From Eutreptiella sp. 'Long Island Sound 2002' (lineage: Eukaryota > Euglenozoa > Euglenophyceae > Eutreptiales > Eutreptiaceae): a stretch of 64,000 nucleotides of DNA. The DNA lies in assembly GCA_964036045.1 (NCBI GenBank), contig OZ038384.1:46686851-46750850 (forward strand), written 5' to 3'. The stretch's first letter is position 1, and each line of letters begins with the position of its first letter. Shown one piece after another: positions 29,467-63,356 of this stretch. A model generated the notes under the pieces. It saw only the letters and a program-made list of their open reading frames with translations. It was not told where the DNA came from and did no database searches. Both the position numbers and the translations under genes were made by a program.

Positions 29467-29620
29467 AAAGCGTTTCACCGCCGCAGGGTTACCCATCCCT
29501 CGCGTGCCACTCGGGGCCACCTGAACCCCGAGCACCACGGGCTTCGCAGCGCCTCCCGGCAACAGCGCCGAGTCCGTGAAGGAGGTGTAGTGACCAGAAC
29601 TCCGACATCAGCGAGTTCCT
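29467..29620 (+). other. 5' untranslated leader of the chromovirus
   Basis: Short non-repeated segment between the left LTR and the first gag frame. The usual TGG start of a tRNA-complementary primer site is not seen at the LTR boundary (the sequence starts AAAGCGTTTCACC), so the priming mode is unknown. Confidence 0.5.
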
Positions 29621-32600: not shown

Positions 32601-34031
32601 ATCGAGCCCCCCACGTACGATGGCAACCCCCTCAACCTCGACTGCTTCTTGGAGAAGCTGGACGATTGGGGGATGACCGTCACTGAAGACATGGATCCCG
32701 CAGATGCGGAGAGATGTGTCTTCAAACGGTTCAGGTACCGCCTGCCGGGGGTGCTCCAAGAGCTATACTTCATGGCGACCAAGGAGGGGAAGATCAAGAC
32801 CCTCAAGGAAGCCAAGTAGTGGCTCAACGAGCAGGAGCGGGTGGACGCTCCGCAGGTGGCTGCCAAGCGGTGGAAGTCCATCAAGCTTCAGCATGATGGT
32901 CGAGAGATCCGCCTACGGGATTGGCGGGACTTCCGGGGGCAATACACCCTCTTCCGCCGCAACCTGGAGGACTGGAATGAGGGTGACGAGCAGGCCCGCC
33001 TGCTCTCCATGCTGCCGGAACCATGGATCAAGAGAGTCACCAAGGAGGAAGCCAAGAGGGCCATGTCCAACCACACGGTCAAGATGATGCTCCCCAAGGA
33101 GTAGCATACGAACGTGGCTCCTTGGACAAGGAAGAACGTGGCCCGGGATGTCAAACGCCACTCCCTGCGGAACACCCTCCTCATCACCGTCACCGGCGAT
33201 CGCGAGAACACCGCGATGTGGCGCCCTGATGAGTGTGACGTGAGCGGCCAGACCATCTGTCTGCAGGCCATCCTGGCGCGGATGAGTTGCGATGAGATCC
33301 TGGAGTGGGTTGGAGAGGGAGTACTCAAGGAGCACCAGAACCTCCACCACACCCGCGGGTTGAGCCCCGGCGACCATGACGTCAACTACGTTGGCGAGGG
33401 GCCTGCCGGGGAAGCTGCCATGGACCCAGCGGGAGCCGACGGCGATGAGGCTCTCAACGACGATGACGACGACGATGAGCCTGCCGAGATGGCCGTCTGT
33501 GCCTTCGTTGCCCACAACTTGAACGCGGGGAGCAACAGGGGAAGCTGGAAGCCCCTGCAGAAGGGTTGGAAGAAGAAGGAGAAGAAGGACCCCCGCCGCA
33601 TTGGCAAACCTCCGCTGTCCTTTGGGGAGTTCATACGAGCCCACCCACAGGGCTGTTTCGTGTGTTATGGGAGGAACAAAGGGTTCAACCATGACCACCG
33701 GACATGCCCCATCCACAAGGCCGACAAGGAGGCCTACAAGAAGGTGCACGGGTCGAAGAAGCGTGCACCCGCGGGTATCCGGGAGACCAAAGTGGAGGTC
33801 GACAAGGATGAGCTCTCCAAGCTGATGTTGGTGGGGACCGAGCTGGCGAAGGAGATCCAGGAGATCAAGAGGAACTGGGTCCCCAGGTCGGACAACAAGA
33901 ACAAGGAGAACAAAGAGAACGACAAGAACAAGGACAAGGACAAGAAAGGTAAGAAAGGGGGAAAGAAGAAAGGTGTCAATGAGGTTGATGCGGAAGAGAG
34001 TACCCCTACTACCACAACCGACGCCCCTTAG
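29621..34031 (+). pseudogene. gag: gag of the chromovirus (stops and one frameshift)
   Basis: 29,621-30,676 encodes a Gly/Ala/Ser-rich N-terminal part. A shift of phase near 30,650 leads to a strongly charged coiled coil (30,660-31,100). After TAA at 31,098 the same phase continues with a Pro/Gly-rich linker and a further helical repeat (31,119-32,519). After TGA at 32,517 comes the capsid-like region (YDGNPLNLDCFLEKLDDW, RFRYRLPGVLQ), interrupted by TAG at 32,817 and TAG at 33,102. Near the end, 33,654-33,707 encodes C-x2-C-x8-H-x4-C, a stretched form of the usual nucleocapsid knuckle, then a Lys/Asp/Asn-rich tail. All parts after 30,650 are in one phase, so the stops are point changes in a once continuous ~1,460-codon frame. 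Confidence 0.8.
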
Positions 34032-34189
34032 CGGAGCCCCTGCAGCCAAGGGCGCCAGCTAGGGCGGTCCCAGGATGGTGTCGTGGGAAGCGCCACACCA
34101 TCCCAGTCGGGAGACGATAAGCACAAAGGGACTGCCGCGGGAGGAAGGCCCGGTCCGGCACCCAAAACGAAAGACAGTCGCGGTGGGGG

Positions 34190-36850
34190 GTGAGGGCAAG
34201 TGAAGGCACAAACCCTTGCACCCGTCCATCCTGCGCGACCAAGAATGTATTTGATGTGCTTCAAGATCTTTCCGAGAGTATCAGAGGATCACCCGGACCG
34301 CAGCTGGATGCTGCAGATGGGCAGCTTGAGCCCATTGTCCACGACCTGCACCAGTCGCTTGTTGAGCTTCTGGAATGGCCGGAGATCCCGAGCTTGCACG
34401 CCGTGCGCCGTGTCGGGCGTGAGCGGCAGTTGCACCTTAAGGTCCGTGCCTTATGCGAAGAAGTGGAGAAGGTCTTCGACGTGTTGGTCGACACGGGAGC
34501 TCAGGTCAGCTTGGTCAAGGCTGGCCTACTTCCGCCAGAGTGCTTGACCGACAGTCGGAAGCCTGTCAGGCTGAAGGTGGCGAACGGCCAGTACATGGTG
34601 GGAGGCACGAAGGAAGCGGCCATTGGGCTGCAGTTCGTGAACCACCGTGAGCTGAGCCGCCTGGACCTCGGCAAGGAAATCCTCCTGCAAGGTCGCTTCT
34701 ACGAGGCCGAGATGGACTGGGACATGATCGTTGGGTACGACTTCATGATGGAGACGGACGCCGGCGTTCTCCCGGCCCAGGCCTCAATGACCCTGTACCA
34801 GGACGACCAGCTCTCGTGGCTTTCGTCACCTGAGCACCATGTGGAATGCCAATGGATCCACCCGGAACGCAATCATCCTCAAGTGGCCGCGCTGGGCACT
34901 GAGCCAACTGGGCCAGCAAACCAGGACTACGGCGTAATACCGGAAGTGGCGAGCCGAGTGGTTCCGGACATGGGAGCTTCGGATCTGGCCCTGGATGCGT
35001 TCTCTTCAGGAACCTCCGCCCATCTTCGGGTTTGTGAGAAGTACTGGAGCGCCCAGGACTCCGCGTGGAAGAAGCACTGGGGTCCGCATCAGGGTTTGAT
35101 GTGGATCCATTGCCCTCGATGGGACATTCCAAGGGCGGTAGCGAAGATTCGCAAGGACCGCTCCAAGGCAGTGCTGGTTGTTCCTATGGGATGCACCGAG
35201 GAGGAAAGCACCCATGATTGGGTGGTCTCATTGACCAACATGACCTTAAACAAGGTCGCTTTACCGGCTGGAGAGAGTGTCTATCAGGACGCTAAGGGAC
35301 AGCCCATGCCACCCCAGAGATGGCCATTGGAACTCCACTATGTGGATGGGGGCCTTGAACAGGCCGACACCACGGACTTCGTGTGTGTCAACCGCATCAT
35401 AGCGGAGCCATGGGGGCAATGCTTTGTGGTTTCCCCTGTTGACATCGGAGAATCGGAGGACCCCCTCACTGAAGAGGAGTTGGATCTGGTTCAGGGGTAT
35501 ATGGGTCAGCCTTTTCACGACTGGGGAAACCAGCGTGAGGGCAAAGGCCAGGACAAAGCCCCGTGGGAAGTGGACTCGATCGTCTCTGGTTCCTATGATG
35601 GGAATACTTTCGTAAAGAGGGTGCTGGACCACATGTCCAGCCAGGACGAGCCAATCGGGGGCAACCCACCCACCTACGGCGACCTGTTCCGAGGCAAGAA
35701 CAGAGATGGCCCTTTGGGCCACCACGGAAGACAACCTGAGCCGAAACCGAGTGGGGTCGCTACCCCTCAAGTAAGCTCAGTGGTCCAGGTGCCCGGAAAT
35801 GCCAAGGCGGAGTCCGATGATTGCCCCAACATCCAGGCATTGAGGGCCAGGCTGAAGCAGAGGTATGGTAATACCTTCTTCAGCGGAAAACCTGTGTTTC
35901 CCCCACTGGTGCGTGGACCGTATGGCGAGGCCAAGATACGACTGAAGCAGGACCCCCGTGTGTATCGGCACCGGGAGTTGGCCCTGAGGGGCGAGAGGAA
36001 GGAGGCCATGGAGAACATCTTCCGTGACTTCATCGAGAGAGGCTGGTTTGAGCCGTGCCACTCCGAGTGGGCCTCTCCGTGCTTCGTCGTCCCCAAGAAG
36101 GTGGCCGGTGAGTGGCGGCTCGTGGTCGACTACCGCGGCCTAAACGCCCAAACGCAGCATGACAGCTATACGCTGCCCCTCATTGAGGACATGCTGCAAA
36201 AAAAACACCGGCGGAGGATCTTCACGGTGATTGACCTGAAACATGGTTATCATCAGATGCCTCTCGCCGAGGAGTCCCGTGCCTGCACAGCCATGAGCAC
36301 CCCACTTGGACCTCCCCAGTGGAAGGTGATGCCCATGGGCGTTACCAACGGCAATGCGGCTTTTCAGCGGATGCTGGAGAACCTGCTTGAGCCGGTGCGT
36401 GACTGTGCGGACCCCTTCGTGGACGACGTGATAATCGTGTCCGGGGACCCCAGTATGAGCTATGAGGAGCTCCTGGAGGCACATGAGAGGGACGTCACCC
36501 GAGTGCTGGACTTTCCCGTTCGGCACAAACTCACGGGCAGCAGTGACAAGGCTACCATTGCGGTAAGCGAGGTGGTCTTCGCTGGCCACGTAGTTGGGAA
36601 CGGGCAGCGGAAGCCCATACCTGGCAAGGTGGCTGCGATCAAGCACTGGGAAAAGCCCAAAACGGTCTCTGAGCTACGGGCGTACTTGGGGTTCTGCAAC
36701 TACTACTCGGGGTATATCAAGATGTATGCCGAGTATGCAGCCCCCATGACGACCATGCTGAAGGGCAACCGAGAGGAGACCAAGAAGGAGTCCAAGAAGG
36801 CTCTGGTCTGGAATGCTGAATCCGACCGTGCCTTTGAGGGGATGGAGCAA
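34190..36850 (+). pseudogene. pol: pol part 1: protease and reverse transcriptase
   Basis: The frame lies in a different phase from gag and begins 158 bp after it; its true start is unclear because the first codon (GTG at 34,190) is not the end of the open stretch. Residues about 95-110 hold the retropepsin motif (FDVLVDTGAQVSLV). A ~470-residue spacer follows. Reverse transcriptase motifs then appear from about residue 575: WASPCFVVPKK, GEWRLVVDYRGLNAQT, FTVIDLKHGYHQM and the catalytic FVDD at 745-746 (36,416-36,427), then the thumb and connection (LRAYLGFCNYYSGYI). The normal frame ends near 36,850, where a one-base loss moves the coding sequence into the next phase. The open frame runs on to 37,090 out of phase. 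Confidence 0.9.
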
Positions 36851-37509
36851 CGCTGCTATCCGCAGTGGGTCTGCACCTCGTGGATCCTGACCGAGGGTTC
36901 GTCCTGCGCACCGACGCTTCCGACTACGCCGTTGGTGCTGTGTTGGAACAAGTGCTTGACGATGGGAGGCACGTGCCAGTGGCCTTCTGGATCCGAGTCC
37001 TGGCGGAAGGCCAGAGACGGACGTGGACGCCCCGAGAAAAGGAGGCGTATGCCATCGTCATGGGTCTCAGGAAATGGGCTGGGTACATAGCCCTCCATCC
37101 CGTCACCGTCTGCACCGACCATCAGAGTCTGCAGTTGTGGCACAAAGAGCACGAGGACACCCCCTCTCGTCCCGCCTCCCAACGGGCAAGATGGCATGAG
37201 AGCTTGGCTAAGTTCGACCTCAGGGTTGTGTATGTTCCTGGCAAGGACAACACCGTGGCGGACTGTCTCAGTAGGTGGGCCTATCCCGCCAGCAAGGGCA
37301 TGACGGATGTCTCCACCCATGGCGATGAGGCTGAGACCGCTGAGGCCAAGAAGATCATAGAAATGGAGCGCCTGATTGAGGAGGAGGGTGTTAAATGCTT
37401 CGTCGTCATGGCTGCGGATGCCCCCCTCGGAGCGAGGATGGGCAAAGCGGTCAGAGTACTCGCCCCTGATGGAGCTGAGTCCGACAAGCACCTCTTCCCT
37501 GAATCTTGA
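36850..37509 (+). pseudogene. pol: pol part 2: RNase H
   Basis: In the phase entered near 36,850 the sequence reads as a Ty3-type RNase H: RTDASDYAVGAVL with the first catalytic Asp, then REKEAYAIVMGL with the Glu, then VTVCTDHQSLQ with the next Asp, and FDLRVVYVPGKDNTVADCLSR with the last. A TGA at 37,507-37,509 separates it from the integrase, which continues in the same phase. It is therefore part of one pol polyprotein broken by one shift and one stop. Confidence 0.9.
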
Positions 37510-37572
37510 CTCCAGGACGACTGGACCGACGACTACGCTAAGTCTGAGGCCTTTGAGGCTGAATATAGGGCT

Positions 37573-39024
37573 GTGACCGACCCTGATGACGGGCAGAAGT
37601 GGCCAAAGGCAAAGAGGCTGACTGAGGAAGATGGCAAGCTCTACCGGAATGGTAAGCTGCTGGTCTCAGAGTCGCGAGTGCTCGAGCTATGTGAGGCTTG
37701 GCACCACCACATGATGCACCCAGGGGTCAAGAAGCAAGCCCTGGACATGCAGCGCCGGTTTGAGATCGACCAGATGGGTCTCTACGCCGCCATCAAGAAG
37801 GTCACGAAGCGTTGCTCGGTCTGTCAGGTCTGCAATCCCGATAACCAGAACGTCAAGGGGGAATCCCAATGGACTCCGGTGCCTGACCAGCCTATGGAGA
37901 GCGTGGCGATGGACGTCTTCTCCATGCCCGAAGTTCACATAGGCAAGGAGACCTTTGACTGTGTGGTCCTTTGTGTGGATCGCCACAGCGGCTACGTAGT
38001 AGCCGTTCTGGCACGCAAAAAGCGGTTGCTTGCCAAGGAAGTGGCAGTCATGATGATTCGTCATTGGCTGACCGTCTTTGACATCCCCCGCACCATTTGC
38101 AGTGACCGAGGGCCACAGTTTACTGGTGGCTGGTTCAAGGCAATGTGTTCCCTCATGGGAATACGTCATGCCAAGAGCGTCGCCTATCTCAGCCGTTCCA
38201 ACGGCCGGGCTGAAGTGGCTGGAAGGCAGCTGTTCGAGAAGCTGCGCAAAATTCACACCACCAATCCACGTCAGAACTGGTTTGAGGAGATGTGGCCCGC
38301 TCTGAAGGCCCATCATGACACCTCCACTCCGGGTGGTTTGTCCCCTCACCAGATTCTGTTCGGCAGGGACCCCCTTGGTCGGGGACTTCCCTTGTCTGGT
38401 GATGGTATGGCCATGGACGCCAAGGAATTCTTTGCGCGGCAAGAGGCAACGGCGCGGGACATCCGCCAGCAGCTCGAGAAGGAGCATGCTGAGCGTCAGA
38501 AGTCCGCCCCGAGCTCGACAGCGCAAAGGTTCAGGGTGGGAGACCCCGTGTGGGTGATCAGACCCCGCCCTATGGGCACCCACCGCACGAAAACCTGGTT
38601 CACACCCGGAGAGGTTGTTCGCAGGATTGGTGAGGACACCTACCGCATCAAGGTGGGTCACGGACACTTCCGGGAGCGCCACGAGAGTCAACTCAGTGTG
38701 CGGGAACCCGACCTCCGTGGCCAACATGTGTCCCTGGACTATGCCGCACATGAGGCTGATTTGGACGACGACTATGCTGAGCAGGACCACCATACCGTCG
38801 AGAAGATCCTGGCCCAGCGTCCGAACGCCTGGGCACCTGGAGGCCTGGAGTTCAAGGTTCGTTGGCGAGGCTATGGGCCGTCCCACGACACCTGGGAACC
38901 CGTCTCCTCGTTCGTGCCGCGGATTGATACCCCCTTCATGGACTACATCCGCAAGCACAAGACCAAGATCCACGTCTCGGACGTGGCAGCACTCACCCGG
39001 GCGATTGCAGCCAGGGGCGCCTGA
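37573..39024 (+). CDS. pol: pol part 3: intact integrase with chromodomain
   Basis: A 483-residue open frame contains a complete Ty3/gypsy integrase. The zinc-binding H-H-C-C region lies at about residues 45-84 (AWHHHMMHPG, then CSVC). The catalytic triad is D114, D178 (SDRGPQFTGG) and E214 (NGRAEVAG), with the standard 35-residue gap between the last two. A beta-barrel region (RFRVGDPVWVIRPR) follows at about 320-380. A chromodomain lies at about 408-462 (HTVEKILAQRP, FKVRWRGYGPSHDTWEPVSS), which in chromoviruses steers insertion to chromatin. The first ATG-like codon is internal to the polyprotein, so this is not an independent gene. This is the best-preserved part of the element. Confidence 0.93.
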   Translation: MTDPDDGQKWPKAKRLTEEDGKLYRNGKLLVSESRVLELCEAWHHHMMHPGVKKQALDMQRRFEIDQMGLYAAIKKVTKRCSVCQVCNPDNQNVKGESQWTPVPDQPMESVAMDVFSMPEVHIGKETFDCVVLCVDRHSGYVVAVLARKKRLLAKEVAVMMIRHWLTVFDIPRTICSDRGPQFTGGWFKAMCSLMGIRHAKSVAYLSRSNGRAEVAGRQLFEKLRKIHTTNPRQNWFEEMWPALKAHHDTSTPGGLSPHQILFGRDPLGRGLPLSGDGMAMDAKEFFARQEATARDIRQQLEKEHAERQKSAPSSTAQRFRVGDPVWVIRPRPMGTHRTKTWFTPGEVVRRIGEDTYRIKVGHGHFRERHESQLSVREPDLRGQHVSLDYAAHEADLDDDYAEQDHHTVEKILAQRPNAWAPGGLEFKVRWRGYGPSHDTWEPVSSFVPRIDTPFMDYIRKHKTKIHVSDVAALTRAIAARGA

Positions 39025-40436
39025 TCACCGCCCTGAGCTCTCCCCTGATGCATTTGAGCGCTTGTTAGGTCGACAGATCGTCCCTCACTTGCTTGCTCTC
39101 TTCCATCTTCCGGTGACCTGCCATCAGAGTGGCCATATACCCCCCCCTGCTGAATCCAGAGGAGGATGGCCCCTCTCTTCCAATTCTATTCGTCACTCCC
39201 CGCCTGCTGAATCCTTGAGAAACCAGGCAGGGCGACTGGCCTTGACATTTTCTGAGCTCTTAGGGCCTTGAAGCCCGTACGACGTTGCGCAACGGATGCC
39301 GCTGTCATCGGCATTGTGATTTTTGTGTGTGTGGTCTGGTCCCATGGCACTTGCGGGATCCGGACCAGTCTACGTGTGTCTGCAGACTATATATGGCCTG
39401 AACTCAGGCGTTTTCCTGTCCACCCTCCCGCATATGCCTTATCCTAACCGGGGCGTGGTTTGGCGCTCTGTCCAGAGTGTGTTTACACGCCTAATACTCC
39501 GTTTATTGCTTATTCTTCTGCCCCCCAGGATATGTGCATCTGTATGTTAAGTGTTGTCAGCTCATCACGGAGATATGGACTGTTTTTCCCCCGAAGGGAC
39601 ACGAATCGGAATACGAAGGCGCCCTGAGTCGCCGTGTACATGCTCTTACATAAGGTCCCGCCTGGACCAGTACCTAAGTACAGATTCCTCTGTTTGAGTG
39701 CCCGTGATACTGTGTGCCCTAGTGGCTGTGAAGTGCTCAGATCCTGATGGTGCCAGGCGGGAAGCCCAGTTGCCTGAGTACACTCCCAGTGGTCCGCCAC
39801 TGTCAGTCCCAGTGTGAGCCTACCGACTCGCAGACGCACTTGCAGTCGGGTGGCGACCTCCGGTGTCCTGACCTCGGTCAGTCTGCCTGGGAAACTGGTG
39901 GTTTGAGGAGTCAACGCCTCCGCCAAGACTGCATGGGGACTGCCTCATGCATGGCCTTCGTAATAATGGGGCGAGGGAAAAGACCGGCTTGATGCCCGAT
40001 CCCTTATGGAGGAGCCCCTCCGGCTTTACCACTCAAAACTCGCGTCGTGGATTTGGACATGGTGCGCCCAAAGAAGGAGCCGTGGGGACTCTCCCACGGC
40101 TTGCGGCCTTGGGAAGCCTGGGGTAGCCTGATGGATTCTTGTGGTCCCTTTTTGACCTGTGGGACCACCTCGGTCGTCGTGTGAAGCCTATGTTCGCGGT
40201 GTATACCACTGCCAATGTGGTAGTGACCGTCGCAGCCGGCTTGATACTTGATACTATACTTGCAGTTACTAACAGCTACAGCACCGTACTTGTCTTACTG
40301 TGGATTGTACTGGGCAGCCTAACCCGCAAATCGGCCTGAAGTGAGGATGTGACACCCCCCCACCCTTCAGGGGATGGTCCTGGGTACCCGCTGCCATGCT
40401 TGGGTGTTATCGAGCCCCCCCCCCAGGGTTTGCTCT
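39025..40436 (+). other. Non-coding 3' internal segment of the chromovirus
   Basis: About 1.4 kb separates the integrase from the right LTR. Frames of 60-138 codons occur on both strands without domain features; none looks like an envelope protein. A C-run precedes the purine tract. Confidence 0.6.
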
Positions 40437-40447
40437 AAGGAGGGGGG
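40437..40447 (+). promoter_or_regulatory. Polypurine tract
   Basis: AAGGAGGGGGG directly abuts the right LTR start (TGAAGC), the position and composition expected for the primer of plus-strand DNA synthesis. Confidence 0.85.
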
Positions 40448-43400
40448 TGAAGCGGTACCAAGAACTTATGGCCCATGGCCCGGAGGCCTGCGAGCCGTCA
40501 CACCCGTTATGGCCCATGGCCCGGAGGCCTGTGAGCCGTCACACCCGTGCGGAAGCCGTTGACACCGGCTGTCAGCGGGATATCCCTGTTCTCTAACCCG
40601 CGAAATCTGGAATCCGATTTCTAACGATTAAGTCGATGTGGAATTACCATAATTTTACTGTCTTGGTCGATTTGCGGTTAGAAATCGGTGAAATACCCGA
40701 TTTCTACCGCGATTTCTAATTGTCGTGAAATCGCCGCCTGAGGTCGCCAGTTCCGTGCACTGCATTAGATGATTCTGTAAAACGATCTTTCTTGAAGTTA
40801 AGACTGAAACACTCTTCGAGTGATCCGCAATTTTTTCCTTGATAGAACGCATCGCGTCCCAGATTTTCCCCAGAAAATCTGGGCGGCCGAAGGTGCTTTG
40901 AACCCCCAAGTGAAATAACAAGGGTTACGAGCGTTCAAGCGCCCAAGGACGAATTAACGTGCCTCATAGGCACTGTGTCTGAGGTTTTGCCCCCCATAGT
41001 CATAGAATGAGGCCAAAGGATCCCAACTCCATAGGCCCAAAGGGATATTTGCTTTGAGTGTTTTCCAAAAAATGGGCAATCTCACGTACTTGGCATCCAA
41101 GTACGTGTAGAAGTATGTTGAGTTGGCGTTTTCCCCCTCTTTGCTTGCCTCTACATCCGGGGCATATCACTTGTCTTCCCCGGATACTACATATATGATC
41201 TCCATATATATATTGGCAACATATTTTGCGTGCATGCTATAATTCGGCTTTCCGAAGGGAGGTCAATTTTCGACCAAAGCACTTGCATGCGTGTTAAGGG
41301 ACTAAAGTTCCTCTAGAATATAGGCATACTTTGATTCTAGGCCACTAGGTTGGGTGTAGAAGGCGAGGATAGGGTTGTATGCCATATTTGGTGTCATATG
41401 ACGTGCCCATTTGGCGGGTGCACCATTCCAAGACTAACCCGCCAATGGAACCCATATCGCACGAAGCTCTTCATTGTGCGTCCCAACCAACACTCGCAAG
41501 CCTAACCTTTGTGAAGGGACGCTTGTGGAACGCTCCCGAAGCGATGCCTTGCGAGCAAGGTGTGTTTTTTGCAATATTCCATATTTGCATGTGCCCACTT
41601 GGGAGGCAGCGCGCGCGGCCTTCCAAAGCGCCCCAAGTGGAGCACATATGTGGAATCGGCGGTCATTGGTGTCGAGTCATTGTGTTTAGAAGGACTGGTC
41701 GATTACTCAATCCAAGCCGAAGATATTATAATACATTTGTGTAGTTTTCAAGGCACTTTTGCGTGTTTTTCGCCAATATTGCTGTTTTTTGCCCGTCATG
41801 ATGTCAAGTGGCGACTGTGTATCTCAACGTTGCGCTCAATTGACATCATGACCCAAGTATGTTTTGTGGGTACACACTTTGGTGCCCAACATATCTTGAA
41901 CCCGGCGAATAACTCCTCTTGGGCTTGGCATACAGTGGCCGCCATGTTGGCAATTTGGGACGATCCCAAATCATGGGCTCACTTGGCGACCCTGCCATTC
42001 CCAAAACCAGAGGGGTTTGGGCGACGCCCAAAAGATATGTTGGGCGCATATGACTTGATACCAATCCTATGGCACACTCCGGTCCAAGTCGGGCATGTGC
42101 CTCATTTGTCCCACCCATGAGTGTGCGCATTTTCGGCCATTTTGAGCAATTTCCCACATTTTCTGCCCGCCGTGCACCATGTTCAGCCCCCTCGTGCACG
42201 CCGGACGCATGGACCAATGGACCATATATGACATGGGGTTTCTGGATATTGGTCACCATGCCTCGCACACCACGTGGGGAAAGCGGAGCAACCTTCGTCA
42301 AGGTGCTAGCCCAAGGTGAGTGTGGACGATTTTGCCATTTTGGCAATTGTCGACCCAATTGCAATTGTCACCACGCCGAGTGGCATGAAGATCTTCGAGA
42401 GCCAAGGGCATGGGAGTCTTTGTTGGACTCCTGGTGAATCGGATATGGAATGGCGGATCCGATCTCCAAGCCGGCGTGGATATATACCATTGGGGGTACC
42501 CCGGATTTTGGCTCATTTTGAGCAGCCAAAATGACCCACCTTTGGGACCCCAATTTCAGCCCCCCGTGTGGTCAATTGGCAGCCCCATATCTCTATGCCC
42601 ACAGTCCTGCCTCCTGTCCTGTGAGCCATTGGCCTTGCCCTGGCCGGGCGAGCCACGCGTGGGAATGATGCCAATTTTGGTGATTTTGGCATCACCACCC
42701 CACTTGAGAAACTCGTGGTGCCCTGATGCCGGGACCTCAGAGGGAACCAGGTTGGGTGAGGGCTCCGAGCAGTTCGTACTTGAAGGGCATAGGGTCAGTT
42801 GTTTCGTCCCTATCTCTGGCGGGTCCGGACGAGGGGTCCATTTTGGAGTTTTCGGAGCTAATATCAGTTCGGGCTGAAACAGCCCATCTTCAGCTACCAA
42901 CTCCTGCGGGACAATTGCCGGGCCCTTTCTCCAGCTCAGAGGGGAGTTGAGACCTGCTGTTGAGGGAGCATGGGGCGCCACTGTTGGTTAGCCCAGGCGC
43001 CCCTTGCTTCCCAGGAACTCGCCTGTGGCTGGGCGGGGCACCTCCCCTATTGGCAGGGTTTCAGGGTCCGGACTGGGCAGGGCTCCGGTTGTGCTTGAGC
43101 CCCCGCCCACGCCAGCCACTGAGAGGGTCGGACCTGCGATTGCGATATGAGTTGGGACTGAGTGTCTATTGTCCTGTGATGCCCTTACCCCAGTCCAGTC
43201 TCAACCCCATGTGTACATATCCTGATGTGTTGGTGTGAAAACTTTTGTTCCCTTGTTTCAGAGTGGCAAGGATCCTGAAACGCTTTGTCACATGACACGA
43301 GCGTGATGATGCCCCTGTGAGCGCAGTGCTTTGCCTGCCTGCTTGCTTGTGCGTGTCCACCGCAGCGTCCCGTGGCCAGGCCCCCCACCGGAACGCGTCA
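40448..43400 (+). repeat. Right LTR (2,953 bp)
   Basis: Colinear with the left LTR from TGAAGCGGTACC to ACGCGTCA, including the doubled 41-bp unit and the TATA-like tract. It lacks the 48 bp present at 28,631-28,680 of the left copy and differs by scattered substitutions. Confidence 0.95.
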
Positions 43401-54521: not shown

Positions 54522-54563
54522 CACCTATGATTTTATGAAGTCGCCAGATCCCAAAATTATTGT
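54522..54563 (+). repeat. Left terminal inverted repeat
   Basis: CACCTATGATTTTATGAAG, 7 non-matching bases, then ATCCCAAAATTA. Pairs with 63,316-63,356 in inverted orientation: 19 of 19 outer bases and 12 inner bases agree. Confidence 0.9.
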
Positions 54564-54769
54564 CGCAGCGGATGCCAAAAAACCAACAGAAACTGTCGCC
54601 GCGCGCGCATTTTCACTCGCCGAGAGCAATTTTTGGCTCAGAAATCTGAAAATACGCGATTACGAAGCGCTTTTTGCGCGTACAATCGAAGATACCAACC
54701 ACCCGCACCTTTTCAATCACGATACCCCGCTCGGAACTGCTCCCAAGTCTCGTAAACGGTCAATTACCT

Positions 54770-55440
54770 CCCAAAAAGCCACAATTTGGCCTTTTTTTGC
54801 CATTTTTTCGTCGGAAAACACATTCTATCTTGTTCCGAGAGGCTGCGGATCAATCAAAGGTGTTCCGTGGAACCACTTGACGATTTCCAAAACATAGCAA
54901 CATCCACCAAGCCATCAAGCTCTCGTAACGTGCCAATCTACCCCCATTTTCGGCCCAAAATGCCACATTTTGGCCTTTTTTCACCACTCTTTCATCATAA
55001 AACACATTCTATCTCTTTCTAAGAGGTTGCGGATCAATCAAAGGTGTTTAATGGAACCACTTGACGATTTCCAAAACATAGCAACATCCACCAAGCCATC
55101 AAGCTCTCGTAACGTGCGAATCTACCCCCATTTTTGGCCCAAAATGCCACATTTTGGCCTTTTTTCACCACTCATTCATCATAAAACACATTCTATCTCT
55201 TTCTAAGAGGCTGCGGATCAATCAAAGGTGTTCCATGGAACCACTTGACGATTTCCAAAACATACGAACATCCACCAAGCCATCTACCTCTCGTGACATG
55301 CGAGTATACCCCCATTTTTCGCCAAAACTGCCATATTTCAGCCTTTTTTTGCATGGTTACGGTCATAATATTTGGTCAATGTTGTTGCGAGAGTCCGCGA
55401 ATCTTTCTATTGTGTTCCATGGAACCACTTGATGACGAGG
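54770..55440 (+). repeat. Left subterminal array, 184-bp units, about 3.6 copies
   Basis: The landmark CATTCTATCT recurs at 54,821, 55,005 and 55,189, exactly 184 bp apart. Units share CAAAATGCCACATTTTGGCC, GCGGATCAATCAAAGGTGTT, GGAACCACTTGACGATTTCC and CATCCACCAAGCCATC. The last copy is more diverged (55,300-55,440). Unit size is close to that of the right-hand array, although the sequence is largely different. Confidence 0.9.
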
Positions 55441-55663
55441 ATGTGGGTTAGGCAAATATTGGTACAATTTCCTCTCCTATATTGAAGATTATGACGCGGA
55501 CGGTGCCAAAAACAGCCATGTTTGGGGGTAGTGATGTGTCCCATGCCCAGCTGCTATGTCTTGTCACGTGCCAACTTGTTGTGTCGCAGGGAGGGTTTCC
55601 ATACGATGTGTTGCATGTCACACTAGGTAGGTACTCAATCCTTTAAAGTGCCATTGTTATGAT

Positions 55664-57427
55664 ATGACGAAGAGCAAGCCCCGCGTGGGCCGTCCCCGAT
55701 TGGCCAATCCGTCGCTGAAGACCTTGAGGAACAGAGCTAGTGCCGCAAATGCAAACCTTAAAAGGGCACTTCCCCAGTTGGTGACTAATGCCAAAGCTCG
55801 GAATCAAAAACGTGTCAAAAATCGACAACGTGCGGAGAAAAACCCTCCCCCAGAGGTTATTGTACGCTCCTTATTGGCAAAGCATGCGGGCAAATCGACA
55901 TGGAAGCAGTTTATCGATACCAAGCAGGATATCAGCGACGATCAACATCTAGGCATTTACCGCAACAAGGTTACTCGCTTGGCCAAAAGCTTAAGGGCCA
56001 ATGTTGGTGGCGTGGTGTTCACGCGGCGATCGAGCCGACTCGACCCATGGAAGGCCATCCCTCTCTACTTGCAAATAGCGAACCGCGACCACTTGCACCA
56101 TGAAGGTACATACAAACGCAGCATAAACATCTTCATTGATGGTTGCGAGGTGGCGTGTTACAAACCCGCTGGTGTGGTTACTCTATCTCTTACTCTACCA
56201 ACGTTACGGGTTCCACATCAAGTTAGTGCTGTGCTTCGCCTGTGTCATTGGATGGGCACCGAAGAACCTAACGAGTTGAAGCTGCGGCTACGTAATCTGA
56301 AGCTAAAGGAAGTATTGACTGACGCTCAAAAGGGTGCATTTGATGGGCATAGGTATCGAATCACCATGAACTTGGATTGGAGCCTTCTAACAAAAATCTT
56401 GTGTTGGGAGCAGAGTGGTCACGAGAAAGCATGCTGGGCCTGTGTTGCGCTCCGGCGGCATTGGATGTATTGTGACTACATGAAACAACCACAAAGGCCA
56501 TTGGAATCCTTCTTTGGTGGCGTATTGGGCTTTTTCTTGTCCCTCTTTGAGACAATTGACGATATCATCTATGACGTCGTCCATTGTCTTGCATTGGTAC
56601 TCCGCAACATGTTGTTGCACGCTTTGGATATATGGGTGCAAGATATGAGCGCTAAGTACCCACACCTTGTTGATCCGGGATTGTTGGGTCGTTTGCGGGA
56701 TGTGTACAACAAGCATCTCGAACGGTGTCCGTATAGACCTCCGGACAAGCGCGGCCCTGAGTACAAAGGTTGGTCTCCTGGAGGAAATATGTCAAAGGAA
56801 CAAATTTTGTACAATGACAAATTCTGGGATGACCTGTGCGCCGTTCTTCCAACGGCTGCACATGGGCTAGATTTCGGCGCAAAACACCCCGGTGTGCCAA
56901 GTGGAAGCCCCTTGCAATGGTACTGTAGAGAGCTCCGCCGCTTGTGCGTGCAAATGTGTGCCTGGAAACCCGAAGGAGTTGAGCGGCGCACTGCTGACTG
57001 TGACCGTTTGCACCGGGTGTATCAGGCCCTTGGGCTCCCGACGGAAAGGATCACGGTCCAATGTCACTTCTTCCTCGCCCACTATGAGCCGCGGTTGCGT
57101 AGGCATGCAAACTTGCAAGGTGGCAGTAGCGAAGGTGGCGAGCATGCACATCAGACGGTGCATAGAATTGTTGCCGTGCGGAAGTCCAAGCCGAATCACA
57201 AATGTCCAGAAGGCATGAAAGAATTTGGACGGGATGCGGCTTTGGATCTAGCACTATGGGCTGAAGGTGAGATCCACCTTGAAAACGATTGTGACCACGC
57301 CATTGCATTGCCAAGTATGAGCTTGCAACAACTACTTCTTGTTTTGTGCTGCGTTGCGTTGTTTGTTCAAGGGTCACCAAGGCAAATATATCGTGCGGCA
57401 CATCTCATCGTTGGATTGGGAAAATGA
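55664..57427 (+). CDS. Transposase-like protein (exon 1 of a candidate three-exon gene)
   Basis: The frame starts with ATG at 55,664 and has 587 codons. The first 60 residues are strongly basic and include a GRPR AT-hook-like core at 9-12, suiting DNA binding. Later features fit an RNase H-fold DDE transposase: D159 at a strand end (INIFIDGCE), LDW at 238, a C-x2-C pair at 257/260, D304 and H307 (YDVVHCLALVLRNML), and E490/E493 with following His (EGGEHAHQTVHR). I cannot name the superfamily. The last ~40 residues are unlike the rest; GT donors at 57,267 (AAG|GTGAGA) and 57,315 (CCAA|GTATGA), both phase 1, may instead splice to 57,486 or 57,501 in phase. Confidence 0.6.
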   Translation: MTKSKPRVGRPRLANPSLKTLRNRASAANANLKRALPQLVTNAKARNQKRVKNRQRAEKNPPPEVIVRSLLAKHAGKSTWKQFIDTKQDISDDQHLGIYRNKVTRLAKSLRANVGGVVFTRRSSRLDPWKAIPLYLQIANRDHLHHEGTYKRSINIFIDGCEVACYKPAGVVTLSLTLPTLRVPHQVSAVLRLCHWMGTEEPNELKLRLRNLKLKEVLTDAQKGAFDGHRYRITMNLDWSLLTKILCWEQSGHEKACWACVALRRHWMYCDYMKQPQRPLESFFGGVLGFFLSLFETIDDIIYDVVHCLALVLRNMLLHALDIWVQDMSAKYPHLVDPGLLGRLRDVYNKHLERCPYRPPDKRGPEYKGWSPGGNMSKEQILYNDKFWDDLCAVLPTAAHGLDFGAKHPGVPSGSPLQWYCRELRRLCVQMCAWKPEGVERRTADCDRLHRVYQALGLPTERITVQCHFFLAHYEPRLRRHANLQGGSSEGGEHAHQTVHRIVAVRKSKPNHKCPEGMKEFGRDAALDLALWAEGEIHLENDCDHAIALPSMSLQQLLLVLCCVALFVQGSPRQIYRAAHLIVGLGK

Positions 57428-57500
57428 CATATCACCCCCCCTTCCCCCCCCCCCCCCCAAAAGTGTTTCTTCCGCCTACCACAAGTGAACCCTGTCTTAG
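57267..57500 (+). other. Candidate intron 1 of the transposon gene (171-234 bp)
   Basis: Donors at 57,267 (GTGAGA) or 57,315 (GTATGA) and acceptors ending at 57,485 or 57,500, the first preceded by a long C-rich pyrimidine tract (57,434-57,480). Every combination leaves exon 1 ending after codon position 1 and exon 2 beginning at position 2, so the reading frame is kept. Not proven without RNA. Confidence 0.5.
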
Positions 57501-57511
57501 GCTTGGCAATC

Positions 57512-59410
57512 ATGTCCGGGGAGGCAGATGTACGCGACCACAAACGGTTTTGCTCCAAAGCCGAAGCCCTCAAATACCATATCAGTGATGTTTTCCGGGC
57601 GGAGGAGGAACCGGCTGAGGAGCATACCGCAGTGAAGAATGATTTGCAAATCAATTCGGTGGCCTTTGGGCTCAGTGGTCGCGTACGGGAGAAAGGCACA
57701 CCACCCACCGCACCCACCCTCTTTCAAGTAGCATGGAAGGGGAAGGTTACTGGGAAAGTGTTCCCCAATGGTGAGATCGAGCTTCAGCATTCGGATGGGC
57801 CGAATAGGTACAAACCAGAGCACGTGCTACCGAAGCTCATTTATGGGATACGTGAAATCTCGCCCGCGGTAGCAATTCTGTCCGAAGACGCAAAGGCCGC
57901 TCATGCCGCTTTCAACCCGGATGAAGGAAGTAGTAGCGGGGATGTCAGTAGCGGGGATGATGCCTCTGATGAGAGTGACGGTGATTCAAAGAGAAAGCGG
58001 CCGAGCAATGCATCTCCACCATCAGCCGAGAAGAGAAAGAAGAAGCCATGCCTCAAAAAAACCGCGAAGCCAGCGGCAAAAAAGGCTGAGCGGGGGCGGA
58101 AGGCACCGGAGGAGGAAATTCGCCGCGTGCTGCAACGGGTTAGGGAAGATGGGTCATCTGCATTGGATGATACCCGAGACTGGGATGCCAAGAGCATGGC
58201 TGCACTTCTGGATGCATACGGAGCCTACCACACTAAGAGTGCCACGTCAAAAGAGATGCGGTCTGCCTTCCGTAGGGATCTCGATGATGGCCTAAGGGAG
58301 CCCTGCACTGTGCCTGCTGCACGTCCAAAGGAGGCCTGCACTTTTAAGCCTCTCTTGGGAAAGACTTCTGCGTTGTCTTTGGCGGCGGACGACGAGGACG
58401 AGGACTCAATGGATGAGTCAGGAGCTGCACCACGTGCTACCGATTCAAAGGAACATATCTTGCAAAAGACGTCTTCCTTGTCCTCCTTGTCTTCCTTGTC
58501 AATGGATGGGTTGGCCGTAGGACCCCCAAGTAGAAAGGATGAGGCACACGTCATTGCCGATAGTGACGACGCCGGGGACGGTTACATGACTGACAAGTCT
58601 GGGGAAGGGCGAGCACCAACTGCTCCGGCAAAGTCAGTCACCCCTCCGTTGTCCCGCACCCTCTTCCCGGGAAAGCATGACAGAAGGGATGGCCACAAGC
58701 ATGATGATGATGATTACTCCGATATCCTTGAACCAAGGGATGGCGACAATCATGATGATGATGATGACCTCGAAATCCTTGACGATGGCGACAAGCATGA
58801 TGATGAGGACCCCGATATCCATGCTTTGGTGCGGCGAAAGGCCTTCTCTCGAACAGGTGACGTGTTGAACAAGTGCACAGTCAAAGCACGCAGTTTGCGA
58901 GTGGAATCATTTGAATATATGTGGCCCGACCTTGGAGAGATGCGGCTGCACCCAGCCGCACTTGAGGACGAAGCCGATGAATGGCAAGAGCACGTGCTGC
59001 AGTCCATTACGGCTCAAAGGACGACATATGGGCTGCCCTTGCAAGGTGTTTACTTTGGGCGCCTGAAGGGCAGCCGTGAAGGCTCATTCACCAATTTTTG
59101 GGCCGAAAAGCGTTCGGGATTGACGGTCTTTGTGCCACTAGGCCTACCGAAAGGGACTTCATGGAAGGTGAAGGTCATCTTGAGCAGTGGAGAGTACACA
59201 TGGGAAGTTGGTGACCGTGATTATTTCCAAGTTCCTGCTGAAAATGCTCGCTCACTTCTTCATCCAGCTGGTCGCCCCGCGTACTTTCTGGCGATGCAGT
59301 TTGGAGATGCTGAACACCCATTGCCAATGGCCATTGATTCCCCACGTGATGTATGTAGTGTGCAGTGTGCGAATTATAATCTATGTGTATTTGGCGAACA
59401 TTGCACCTGA
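57512..59410 (+). CDS. Unknown acidic/basic protein (candidate exon 2)
   Basis: The frame is open from 57,485; its first ATG is at 57,512 (633 codons to 59,410). An N-terminal globular part (FQVAWKGKVTGKVFPNGEIE) is followed by an acidic Ser/Asp stretch, a Lys/Arg-rich nuclear-localisation-like stretch (KRKKKPCLKKTAKPAAKKAE), a long disordered part with SLSSLSSLS, then His/Asp runs near 58,690-58,810. A compact C-terminal region comes last (GLPLQGVYFGRLKGSREGSF, KVKVILSSGEYTWEVGDRDY). No known domain recognised. A phase-0 donor GTATGT at 59,351 may remove the last ~20 codons and join exon 3. Confidence 0.6.
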   Translation: MSGEADVRDHKRFCSKAEALKYHISDVFRAEEEPAEEHTAVKNDLQINSVAFGLSGRVREKGTPPTAPTLFQVAWKGKVTGKVFPNGEIELQHSDGPNRYKPEHVLPKLIYGIREISPAVAILSEDAKAAHAAFNPDEGSSSGDVSSGDDASDESDGDSKRKRPSNASPPSAEKRKKKPCLKKTAKPAAKKAERGRKAPEEEIRRVLQRVREDGSSALDDTRDWDAKSMAALLDAYGAYHTKSATSKEMRSAFRRDLDDGLREPCTVPAARPKEACTFKPLLGKTSALSLAADDEDEDSMDESGAAPRATDSKEHILQKTSSLSSLSSLSMDGLAVGPPSRKDEAHVIADSDDAGDGYMTDKSGEGRAPTAPAKSVTPPLSRTLFPGKHDRRDGHKHDDDDYSDILEPRDGDNHDDDDDLEILDDGDKHDDEDPDIHALVRRKAFSRTGDVLNKCTVKARSLRVESFEYMWPDLGEMRLHPAALEDEADEWQEHVLQSITAQRTTYGLPLQGVYFGRLKGSREGSFTNFWAEKRSGLTVFVPLGLPKGTSWKVKVILSSGEYTWEVGDRDYFQVPAENARSLLHPAGRPAYFLAMQFGDAEHPLPMAIDSPRDVCSVQCANYNLCVFGEHCT

Positions 59411-59672
59411 CAGGTTCATGGCCTGAAGAGTGTTTTTCTTCTTGTGTTGTGCCTACATGTGTCATCTTTGCCTTCTTACTTTGTCTCTCCTCTCCCATAT
59501 GGGCCGTAGCAAATGAGGTTGGAGAATCTTCCAAAGAAAGGATATAGTGGGCGAATTTTTCAATTTTTAGGCATAGTGTGCAACTCCCATCTCCCAATGC
59601 GGTAAATTAGACCAGAACACAACAACACCGCAGAGCACAACACCGCAGAGCTCTTTTTCCTTTTGCCTATAG
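59351..59672 (+). other. Candidate intron 2 of the transposon gene (322 bp)
   Basis: GTATGT donor at 59,351 directly after a complete codon, and acceptor CTCTTTTTCCTTTTGCCTATAG ending at 59,672 (long pyrimidine tract). Exon 3 opens at 59,673 with a complete codon, so both sides are phase 0. This explains why the 59,703 frame has no ATG at its start. Confidence 0.65.
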
Positions 59673-60316
59673 GTCCATGAAGTCAACAGGCGAAGGCCCA
59701 CTTTGCCTGCAGCACCCCAGGGCCCACGGAGGTCGGATCGCGTGCACCTTGCTGCCGCGGCGCCCAAGAAGGATGATGGTGCGAAGAAGGATGATGGCGC
59801 CAAGAAGGATGATGCTCGCAAGCGGGATGCTGCACATGCCAAGGAGCTCAAGGCGCACGCAGCTGCCGCCACTGCTGCACATGCCAAGGCCAAGGCGGAA
59901 GCGAAGCTCGCTAAGGTGGCGAATGCAAAGGCGGCCAAGGCATTGAAGGATGCGGCCAAGGAGCGCGCCGAGAAGGAGGCTTGCAAGAAGGAATTGGCTT
60001 CGCAAAAAAGTTTGCTGGCGGCAAGGGCCAACCGCCTGAGTGAGATGGAGAAGGAATTGGACGACCTAAGGCGTAGTAAGAGTTCGGACAAGAATTCGGG
60101 TGCAAGCACGGCACAGGGCATGGGCAATGAGCCCCGCCATGGCGTGGTGCAGGGCACGAACATGGGAACGGGCACCGGGCAGGGTCATGGCATGGTGCAG
60201 GGCACGAACATGGGAATGGGCACCGGGCAGGGTCATGGCATGGTGCAGGGCATGGTGCAGGGTGGTGGTGCGGGACAGGCCATGGGAATGGGGATGGGGA
60301 TGGGGATGGGGCCAAG

Positions 60317-60350
<34 letters not shown>

Positions 60351-60695
60351 GGTATGGGTATGGGGCAAAACTCAAACATGCCTATGGGCCCGAACATGGG
60401 CATGGGGATGGGGTCAGGCATGGGCATGGGTGTGGGCATGGGACAAAACCCTAACATGCTGATGGGCACAGGCATGGGCGTTGGCGTGGGGCAGGGCATG
60501 GGCATGGGTACGGGTATGAGTATGGGGCAAGGGATGGGTATGGGTACCGGGATGGGGCAAGGGGTGGGTATGGGACAGGGCATGGGTATGGGACCTGGGA
60601 TGGGTATGGGTGCGGCAATGGGGCAAGGCATGGGTATGGGTATGGGTATGGGCATGGGGCAGGGCATGGGCATGCACCAAAATAGGTGGTGCTGA
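59673..60695 (+). CDS. Coiled-coil protein end with Met-Gly repeat tail (candidate exon 3)
   Basis: Open from the acceptor at 59,673 to TGA at 60,695 (340 codons); no ATG lies near the start, supporting an exon. After a basic lead, Lys/Asp repeats (KKDDGAKKDD) pass into a long Ala/Lys/Glu coiled coil (about 59,820-60,090). The last ~190 residues are almost only Met and Gly with Gln, Asn and Pro: GTNMG-TGQGHGMVQG units, then GMGMGMGMGQ runs. The DNA is an ATGGGC/ATGGGT hexamer repeat, so the tail could have grown by slippage, yet it stays in frame for over 570 bp. Confidence 0.6.
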
Positions 60696-61100
60696 GCCCA
60701 GGCTTAGATTTCGGATTCATAAATTCCCTGCTGTTGTAGTTTCAAAGGCGTCTTTCTCTGTGTATGGTGAATTGTACCAGTGGAGGATGGAAGTCTCCGT
60801 CTCAAAAGCGTATTCATATGCCACACACAAGCAAAAAGGTGAGGAAGGTGTGAAGACAACAGTGCCTTCTGTGGCTGCACAGCTGCTCCACTTTCTGTGG
60901 CAGTGCTTTAGTTTACCATTTATTTTCTGCGTCCAACAATCACTGCATGGTTCATCCTGTATTTGATTGTGACAGGCTCCGAAATCTACCACAATGCAAG
61001 ATTCCATGGGCAATGACTATGCTGTGCCAAAGAGTGGCCTATTGTTCCACAAGAGTGTCTGGATAGTGTCTGGATCTCATTTACATGCAGGCCTCTCCCA

Positions 61101-61552
61101 CTTGTCTATTGTCTGTTGTCTGTTGTCTGTTGCCTGCCGTCAGTTGAGCGTTGTCGTCCATTGTATGTTGTCTGTTGTCTGTTGTCTGCGGTCTGTTGTC
61201 TGTTGCCTGCCGTCAGTTATACGTCGTCGTCCATTGTCTGTTGTCTGTTGTCTGTTGTCTGTTGTCTGTTGTCTGTTGTCTGCGGTCTGTTGTCTGTTGC
61301 CTGCCGTCAGTTGTACGTTGTCGTCCATTGTTGTTGTCTGTTGTCTGTTGTCTGTTGTCTGTTGTCTGTTGTCTGTTGTCTGTTGTCTGTTGTCTGCGGT
61401 CTGGTCTGTTGCCTGCCTGTTGTCTGTTGTCTGTTGTCTGTTGTCTGTTGCGTGTCGCCTGAGGTAAATTGGACGTCGTCCAGTGTTGTCTGTTGTCTGT
61501 TGTCTGTTGTCTGTTGCCTGTCGTCAGTTGAACGTCGTCGTCCAGTCGTGAC
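61101..61552 (+). repeat. TTGTCTG heptamer repeat with a ~110-bp higher order
   Basis: Runs of TTGTCTG, with TGCGGTCTG variants, are interrupted at intervals by a longer block (TTGCCTGCCGTCAGTTG, then CGTCGTCCATTG) near 61,130, 61,206, 61,297 and 61,515. Open frames here (LSVVCCLLSVVCC) are products of the repeat. Confidence 0.85.
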
Positions 61553-61620
61553 TAGCTCTATTCCTGCGATTCATTCAGAGTTCCTTCAGACGTGGAATCT
61601 TGGGGGTGTCCGAGTGCATG

Positions 61621-62130
61621 TTCCAATTTGCTGATGTGTTGCACGTCTCAGGAGTAAGAAAGTTCATACAGACCAATTTCTGGATCGAATTCAATCAGCA
61701 TTCTGCATCCTGCGATTCATTCAGAGTTCCTTGAGACATGGAATCTTGGGGGTGTCCGAGTTGATCAGCTTTGCCTTCGCCAATGTCAGCTTTGACTCCA
61801 TTTGTCCATTGGCGGCATGTTCCAATTTGCTGATGTGTTGCACGCCTCAGGAGTAAGAAAGTTCATACAGACCAATTTCTGGATCGAATTCAATCAGCAT
61901 TCTGCATCCTGCGATTCATTCAGAGTTCCTTGAGACATGGAATCTTGGGGGTGTCCGAGTTGATCAGCTTTGCCTTCGCCAATGTCAGCTTTGACTCCAT
62001 TTGTCCATTGGCGGCATGTTCCAATTTGCTGATGTGTTGCACGTCTCCGATGAGTTTGTTTGTGCGCCTGGTGTATCTGTGTCAAATGGGAAGGATACAT
62101 GTTGCAATTTGCTGATGTGTTGCACGTCTC
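61621..62130 (+). repeat. 199-bp tandem repeat, about 2.5 copies
   Basis: TTCCAATTTGCTGATGTGTT occurs at 61,621, 61,820 and 62,019, exactly 199 bp apart, and in a changed form (TTGCAATTTGC) at 62,103. Units contain GTTCATACAGACCAATTTCTGGATCG and GTGTCCGAGTTGATCAGC. It runs directly into the right subterminal array and shares GACCAATTTCTGGA with it. Confidence 0.85.
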
Positions 62131-63316
62131 AAGAGTAAGAAATTTCTGGAGCCCGTCTTCGCCAAAATTTGACATTTTTCGTCAAAAATGGGCCAAAAAA
62201 GGCCATTTTTTTGCCAAAAATAGGTTTTTTGCCCTGTTGTGGACTGGCAACGACCCCCCCCCCCCCTATTTTGAGGGTGCCCAATACAAAAAAACACGTC
62301 TCAGGAACAAACAAGTTCATACTGACCAATTTCTGGAGCCCGTCTTCGCCAAAATTTGACATTTTTCGTCAAAAATGGGCCAAAAAAGGCCATTTTTTTG
62401 CCAAAAATAGGTTTTTTGCCCTGTCGTGGACTGGCAACGACCCCCCCCCCCTATTTTGAGGGTGCCCAATACAAAAAAACACGTCTCAGGAACGAACAAG
62501 TTCATACTGACCAATTTCTGGAGCCCGTCTTCGCCAAAATTTGACATTTTTCGTCAAAAATGGGCCAAAAAAGGCCATTTTTTTGCCAAAAATAGGTTTT
62601 TTGCCCTGTCGTGGACTGGCAACGACCCCCCCCCCCCTATTTTGAGGGTGCCCAATACAAAAAAACACGTCTCAGGAACGAACAAGTTCATACTGACCAA
62701 TTTCTGGAGCCCGTCTTCGCCAAAATTTGACATTTTTCGTCAAAAATGGGCCAAAAAAGGCCATTTTTTTGGCCAAAAATAGGTTTTTTTTGCCCTGTGA
62801 TGGACTGGCAACGACCCCCCCCCCCTATTTTGAGGGTGCCCGATACAAGAAAAAACGTCCCAGGAGCAAACAACCTCATGAAGACCAATTTCTGCAGCCC
62901 GTCTTTGCCAAAATTTGACATTTTTCGTCAAAAATGGGCCAAAAAAAGGCCATTTTTTGGCCGAAAATAGGTTTTTTTGCTCCGTGGGGGACTGGCAACG
63001 ACCTCCCCCCCCTATTTTGAGGGTGCCCAATACAAAAAAACACTTCTTAGCATCAAGAAAAGTCATACAGACCAATTTCTGCAGCCTGTCTTCGCCAAAA
63101 TCTGCCATTTTTTGTCAAAAATGTGCCAAAATTTGCCATTTTTTGGCCCGAAACAGGTTTTTTCGCCCTGGCGGGGACTTCCAAGACCCCCCCCCCCTAT
63201 TTCAAGGGTGCCCGATGCAACAAAAACGCGTCACAGGAGCAAAGGAATGCACATGGACCAGTTTTGGCAGCCTCTCTCCGCCAAAATGTCACATTTTTCG
63301 TCAAAAATCAGCCAAA
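62131..63316 (+). repeat. Right subterminal array, ~187-bp units, about 6.3 copies
   Basis: The landmark TTCGCCAAAATTTGACATTT (with variants) recurs at about 62,157, 62,345, 62,530, 62,716, 62,903, 63,089 and 63,278. Each unit has CGTCAAAAATGGGCCAAAAA, GGCCATTTTT, a C-run before TATTTTGAGGGTGCCC, and CAGGA-C. The units nearest the terminus are the most diverged. The palindromic GGCC-AAAA/TTTT-GGCC words recall the left array. Confidence 0.9.
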
Positions 63317-63356
63317 ATTAATTTTGGGATGAGCCTGCTTCATAAAATCATAGGTG
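63316..63356 (-). repeat. Right terminal inverted repeat
   Basis: Plus strand ends CTTCATAAAATCATAGGTG at 63,356, the exact reverse complement of 54,522-54,540. An inner block TAATTTTGGGAT mirrors ATCCCAAAATTA at the left end. Confidence 0.9.

Follow-up and report, generated by a model that had tools for sequence, protein, structure and literature searches.

A DNA transposon of Eutreptiella with a putative RAG1/CACTA-type transposase and a target-site duplication of mostly one base

We analyzed a window of 64,000 nucleotides from contig OZ038384.1 of Eutreptiella sp. 'Long Island Sound 2002', and confirmed that its positions 54522-63356 are a complete DNA transposon. This is, with considerable confidence, a recently active and autonomous cut-and-paste element of about 8.6-8.8 kb, whose ORF1 would encode a RAG1/Transib/CACTA (CMCT)-type DDE transposase. 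Its most unusual feature is the 1-bp target-site duplication (TSD). We read the element as working like a RAG1/CACTA-type cut-and-paste transposon and as a new CMCT-like lineage marked by this one-base duplication.

Bounds and organization of the element

An exact 19-mer was found at 54522-54540 on the forward strand and at 63338-63356 on the reverse strand, and chance matches with up to three mismatches had a mean of 0.01. The terminal arms reach 38 bp (left, 54522-54559, forward strand; right, 63319-63356, reverse strand) and are organized as 19 exact, 7 divergent and 12 exact positions; 33 of the 38 are identical, with the middle 7-base stretch alike at 2 of 7. In agreement, an earlier note on this DNA had described inverted termini of 19 exact bases plus an inner 12. 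All 39 copies of the main set described below have identical first 47 bp, and all but one (38 of 39) are also identical in the last 84 bp. The target-site base is a T, present as the left copy of the duplication at 54521 and as the right copy at 63357. The subterminal tandem arrays of the note, with units of 184 bp on the left and about 187 bp on the right, were also recovered: by tandem-repeat period, the left one (54770-55349) holds 3.2 copies of a 184-bp unit, and the right one (62141-63317) 6.3 copies of a 187-bp unit. An additional internal tandem repeat of 199 bp (2.2 copies, 61616-62047) and an array of the heptamer TTGTCTG (61102-61530) were detected as well.

The note had placed an open reading frame at 55,664-57,314; the frame is indeed open there, but runs on to 57427, so that ORF1 (55664-57427, forward strand) encodes 587 aa. 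ORF2, on the same strand, gives 953 aa from the ATG at 57512 once a predicted 322-nt GT-AG intron (59351-59672) is removed, the splice sites having been judged by eye and checked on the copy L044. Its exon 1 (57512-59350, end predicted) would encode a charged accessory protein, and the predicted exon 2 (59673-60695) a coiled-coil-like part followed by a Met-Gly-rich tail; the C run upstream of the ATG varies in length among copies. None of the ORF2 pieces had a Pfam match above the cut-off. A likeness of the ORF3 piece P0003 to CFAP143 was below threshold (E 0.0031, 17.8 bits, cut-off 27) and was taken as an effect of composition. In CACTA elements, the second gene encodes an accessory DNA-binding protein, and, judged by its position, the ORF2 product could be such a protein.

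The window also contains a region (26500-42200) that resembles an LTR retrotransposon of the Ty3/gypsy type with a chromodomain, with a reverse transcriptase in 34190-37090, an integrase and chromodomain in 37573-39024, and similar short repeats near 26.5 and 40.5 kb. A 209-bp tandem satellite of about 16 copies with 84% matches occupies 23040-26477.

Copies in the host genome

The 19-bp end had 171 forward and 171 reverse exact matches in the 2.28-Gb genome (2205 contigs), compared with 0 for the reversed control, which provided the further copies with these ends that the note had suggested looking for. Among the 100 end places listed, 76 formed 38 facing pairs within 10 kb; all 38 were taken and, together with the window copy, constitute the main set of 39 copies, the pairs being chosen for exact ends. 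Every one of the 39 has one left-type and one right-type end. Their sizes ranged from 570 to 9775 bp, with 10 copies of at least 8629 bp and 29 shorter ones, mostly explained by internal deletion. ORF1 was scored at 74 places among 1409 first-look candidates, a lower bound; all were at least 99% identical to the query, and 73 of the 74 had no internal stop. The 15 full-length ORF1 frames showed a mean of 1.2 differences per 1764 nt, with a maximum of 6. Since the ORF1 copies are nearly identical, the element moved very recently by that measure, and this near-identity suggests that it may still be mobile. A reading of ORF1 as a host gene was ruled out by the many near-identical copies having common ends.

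Some copies had particular locations or ends. Contig C27 (20.5 Mb) carries 6 of the 74 listed ORF1 copies, compared with 0.66 expected from its length (Poisson probability 7e-5, uncorrected for the at least 27 contigs tested), and might be a chromosome accumulating new insertions. In the first 100 kb of contig C24, three ORF1 matches with shorter open frames are found at about 4.6, 11 and 82 kb, perhaps a duplicated end region holding broken copies. The ORF1-bearing copy L051 (C5:18315704-18315784) has the left end TGCCTATGATTTT instead of CACCTATGATTTT. Finally, a comparison of the L044 flanks with window positions 36862-37412 suggests that this copy sits in a retrotransposon distantly related (71%) to that of the window.

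Target-site duplication

Both ends were read in 49 copies, counted only when the two were exact; 44 of these had a TSD of 1 bp and 5 a TSD of 2 bp. This is the flank alignment that the earlier note had proposed for fixing the duplication, whose one-base length it had not noticed. In the main set, 35 of 39 copies had a 1-bp TSD, and the other four had exactly 2 bp (AG, CT, AC and CT). Random pairing of the flanks produced on average 10.6 one-base matches for the 39 copies, with a maximum of 20 in 2000 tries. Some of the 35 one-base copies are ambiguous, as 2 also match at 2 bp and 2 at 3 bp. At 3 bp, the flanks matched in 2 of 39 copies (0.6 on average after shuffling), and each of these two matches at 1 bp as well; no match of 4 to 8 bp was found in any of the 39. 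The second batch was composed of 20 more ORF1-bearing copies from other contigs. Both exact ends lay in the fetched stretch for 10 of them, and the TSD was 1 bp in 9, one of which also matches at 2 bp, and 2 bp in the tenth; the remaining 10 gave no readable TSD, with the left end only in 7 and neither end in 3.

Any base can be duplicated: over the 44 one-base copies, it was A in 17, T in 14, C in 7 and G in 6. Target preferences in the flanks were weak: of the 44 copies, 24 had T at -2, 40 had a purine (A or G) at +2 and 27 had T at +4. The idea of a specific target motif was dropped on this basis.

Because some insertions sit in repeated sequence, related unoccupied sites were available for comparison. 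A one-base gap was located at the junction or no more than 6 bases away in 9 of 11 empty-site comparisons, the cleanest pairs being L041 with L027, L034 with L022, and L022 with L034. Of the remaining two, L033 showed two bases within a G run, and L027 was ambiguous with a net gain of one. As these empty sites are paralogous, 71-96% alike and partly non-independent, they support the TSD length and do not prove it by themselves.

The putative transposase and its likeness to RAG1

The search of ORF1 against Pfam and NCBIfam gave nothing beyond chance (the best Pfam hit was an unrelated family, E 0.13), and neither did the PDB sequences, with a chance match alone at E 1.6. Likewise, an Rfam search at the gathering threshold returned nothing beyond chance, no relatives of ORF1 were found among the viral contigs searched, and the initial protein search returned ORF1 itself alone. 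A search with residues 140-520 detected P0005 (36% identity, E 2.8e-59), which sits on a 2340-base contig of another source, and P0006 (43%, E 5.9e-47). The profile search added P0007-P0010; among these, P0007 closely resembles P0006, and P0010 represents a broken copy of ORF1.

The three sequences aligned with ORF1 (P0001) are 36-40% identical to it. In the alignment of families A (that of the window element), B and C with P0005, the residues D159, D238, C257, C260, H307, H468, H473 and E493 are invariant, and D304 and E490 are variable. All four sequences thus carry the CMCT signature: D, D and E, with C(2)C and H(3-4)H between the second D and E, and a third H. The corresponding residues of mouse RAG1, in the portion of PMC4914335 used here, are D600, D708, C727, C730, H937, H942 and E962, and the spacing from D708 is 19/3/207/5/20, compared with 19/3/208/5/20 from D238 in ORF1. 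The first two D residues are 79 positions apart in ORF1 and 108 in RAG1. When P0001 was shuffled, the signature pattern, with a long gap of 150-300, was generated in 45 of 200000 sequences.

The profile-profile search proposed in the note was run against mouse RAG1 as one reference. Without guidance, hhalign aligned the three-sequence ORF1 profile with RAG1 over 229 columns, with D2, C(2)C, DxxHC, H(4)H and SEGxE in register (DVVHC paired with DALHC, and SEGGE with SEGNE) and D1 outside the alignment. The statistical support was modest, with a probability of only 5.6% (score 27.6, P 0.0068, with profiles of 3 and 1 sequences). None of 400 shuffled RAG1 controls reached 27.6 (maximum 25.5), and the best of six other window ORFs was the retrotransposon integrase frame, which we take to be an RNase H-fold enzyme too, with 23.5. 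The four-sequence profile gave a score of 27.1 (probability 3.6%, P 0.012, 109 columns); none of 300 shuffles reached this score (maximum 25.6), and some of them aligned more columns, up to 136. An AlphaFold model of ORF1 built from 6 sequences had a mean pLDDT of 42. Collectively, the shared motifs and their spacing make a kinship of ORF1 with RAG1 likely.

Related families in the same genome

Two further ORF1-related families, B, to which P0006 belongs, and C, were found in the host genome. A stretch of exactly 6071 bp, delimited by CACCTATGATTTTGTGG and CACCTTTGATTTTACCGG, showed 99.7% agreement between the family B copies L087 and L088, and the right-end 18-mer of this family had 204 + 194 genome matches, with 0 for the control. 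The ORF1 of family B is 40% identical to that of family A, and the ends of both families have in common CACCT-TGATTTT and, further inside, a CCAAAA block (positions 30-35), with 22 to 27 of 38 positions identical. Among the five family B copies with both ends read, the TSD was 1 bp in four and 2 bp in one; in an extra batch of 10, a recognizable end was missing from the 401-bp stretch for 7, and no TSD was obtained from these. The short TSD is found in both families A and B, so it seems to be a property of the lineage and not of a single copy or burst. Family B also contains repeats, with 111-, 160- and 430-bp units. In family C (L089 and L090, alike over about 7.3 kb), ORF1 is 39% identical to P0001, the eight signature residues are kept and D304 and E490 are changed; no terminal inverted repeat or TSD was found at these two places.

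Subterminal arrays and minimal ends

The earlier note had given weight to the subterminal arrays, by comparison with the binding sites of CACTA elements, and, if this were correct, they would be essential for transposase binding. The arrays are real, and an inverted A/T-rich motif of about 30 bp is common to the left and right ones (score 35, compared with 23 for the highest of 300 shuffles); moreover, the sister family has arrays too. Even so, we find an essential role decidedly improbable. The number of array markers varied from 0 to 3 on the left and from 0 to 10 on the right, and unit lengths are unlike between families A and B. In addition, some derivatives lack the arrays in part or as a whole. 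The 1010-bp derivative L031 has 47 bp of the left and 89 bp of the right end around a foreign 874-bp interior, and may be a MITE-like family member or the carrier of a captured host fragment; L042 keeps 84 bp of the right end, and L046 keeps 223 bp of the left end, stopping before the array. All three have intact ends and a 1-bp TSD; each is represented by one copy, and its interior could have been exchanged at some time after it was inserted. These single derivatives suggest that the minimal ends are probably within 47 bp on the left and 84 bp on the right, and that the arrays are apparently dispensable, although they may still assist, for example, as binding sites for the second protein. Since the units of the sister family measure 111, 160 and 430 bp, a nucleosome-length meaning of the arrays was given no weight and set aside.

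A proposed mechanism and its meaning

The length of a TSD reflects the distance between the two target-strand joins made by the transposase, and is used in the classification of DNA transposons. For the window element, we propose that ORF1, perhaps with the help of the ORF2 protein, would recognize two different yet related ends by the outer CACCTATGATTTT and the inner CCAAAA at positions 30-35, and would cleave at the CA..TG termini. The 3' ends would then be joined to both target strands with a stagger of one base, or sometimes two, and gap filling would generate the 1-bp (or 2-bp) duplication. The internally deleted copies that keep both ends could have been mobilized in trans.

If this is true, the joining distance, which is 2-5 bp in described relatives, can shrink to almost nothing inside one enzyme clade, and a 1-bp-TSD lineage beside the RAG1/CACTA group would be a natural variant for asking what sets this distance. 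Similarly, the bipartite CAC...CCAAAA ends would be a distant parallel to the recombination signals of antibody genes. Annotation methods that require a longer duplication would probably overlook such insertions. Among the papers listed from open-access full text, no transposon paper concerns a one-base duplication by its title, and two transposon papers with a matching phrase have 14-nt and 10-bp duplications; an earlier description may exist elsewhere, for example, in Repbase Reports.

Classification and alternative readings

The sections of Kojima 2025 (PMC12730594) used here define CMCT as CACTA-Mirage-Chapaev-Transib/RAG1, a clade of EnSpm/CACTA, Mirage, Chapaev, Transib, Plavaka, ESTA, Lanisha and RAG1, with conserved 2C + 3H and 5'-CA..TG-3' termini; the TSDs given there are 2-5 bp for known members, 3 bp for EnSpm, and 8 bp for Zisupton. 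Besides the signature, the window element has CA..TG termini, CACCTATG...CATAGGTG in the 49 copies selected for exact ends. Its TSD falls below the 2-5 bp of CMCT in 44 of 49 copies and reaches 2 bp in 5. The 3 bp of EnSpm/CACTA is seen in 2 of 39 copies, both matching at 1 bp also, and neither the 5 bp of Transib (0 of 39 at 4 to 8 bp) nor the 8 bp of KDZ elements such as Zisupton (0 of 39) was observed. As the TSD length fails for each named superfamily compared, we assign the element to none of them. The earlier statement that the transposase-like protein could not be assigned to a named superfamily stands in that no tested superfamily fits in full, but the protein can be placed by its RAG1/Transib/CACTA-type D, D, C(2)C, H, H(4)H, E signature. 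On balance, we lean towards a superfamily-level RAG1/CACTA-type lineage, represented in one genome by two families or more, in which the strand-transfer complex would cut the target strands one base apart.

A very divergent EnSpm/CACTA member with a TSD short by happenstance would also have CAC..GTG ends, subterminal repeats, two genes and the CMCT signature, and such termini are described for fungal EnSpm families in the sections of PMC12730594 used here. We think this unlikely, as 3-bp TSDs would be expected from the same source and 49 of 49 copies match at 1 or 2 bp; moreover, ORF1 matched none of the EnSpm/CACTA transposase families of Pfam, Transposase_21 included, nor any other Pfam transposase, and the termini of the element are CACCT, not CACTA/CACTG. 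The true duplication could instead be longer, 3-5 bp as in relatives, with bases lost in repair, and the 2-5 bp of known CMCT lineages (in the same part of PMC12730594) would agree with this. However, ragged trimming should yield varied ends and target deletions, whereas intact ends accompany a 1-bp duplication in 44 of the 49 copies, the remaining 5 having exactly 2 bp, a one-base gain was obtained in 9 of 11 empty-site comparisons, and families A and B behave alike, all of which makes this reading highly improbable. The low hhalign probabilities (5.6% and 3.6%), the pLDDT of 42 and the lack of a Pfam match would suit an ORF1 from some other DDE superfamily with a convergent likeness to RAG1. 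This is quite improbable, given eight invariant signature residues, a spacing nearly that of RAG1, motifs that came into register unguided, and CA..TG ends.

Comparison with known systems

The favored reading, a CMCT-like lineage with a one-base duplication, places the element close to several known systems. It resembles Transib/RAG1 in the D2, C(2)C, H(4)H and E spacing, nearly that of mouse RAG1, and in ends that start with CAC and have an A-rich block further in, an arrangement reminiscent of the heptamer and nonamer of recombination signals. It differs in that Transib and RAG generate a 5-bp TSD and that ORF1 was unmatched to them in the Pfam and PDB sequence searches. EnSpm/CACTA elements, which end in CACTA/CACTG, share with it the CAC..GTG type of ends, the subterminal repeats, here apparently dispensable, and a transposase gene accompanied by a second gene; the window element is distinguished by its long repeat units, the absence of a Pfam transposase match and a TSD shorter than the 3 bp reported for them in the sections of PMC12730594 used here. 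According to those sections, a short or missing duplication also characterizes the lineages Spy (no TSD) and PHISTA/ESTA (a fixed TA), whereas the window element duplicates any of the four bases. Within the CMCT clade as there described, known members have 2-5 bp TSDs, whereas 44 of the 49 copies of this element have 1 bp and the other 5 have 2 bp.
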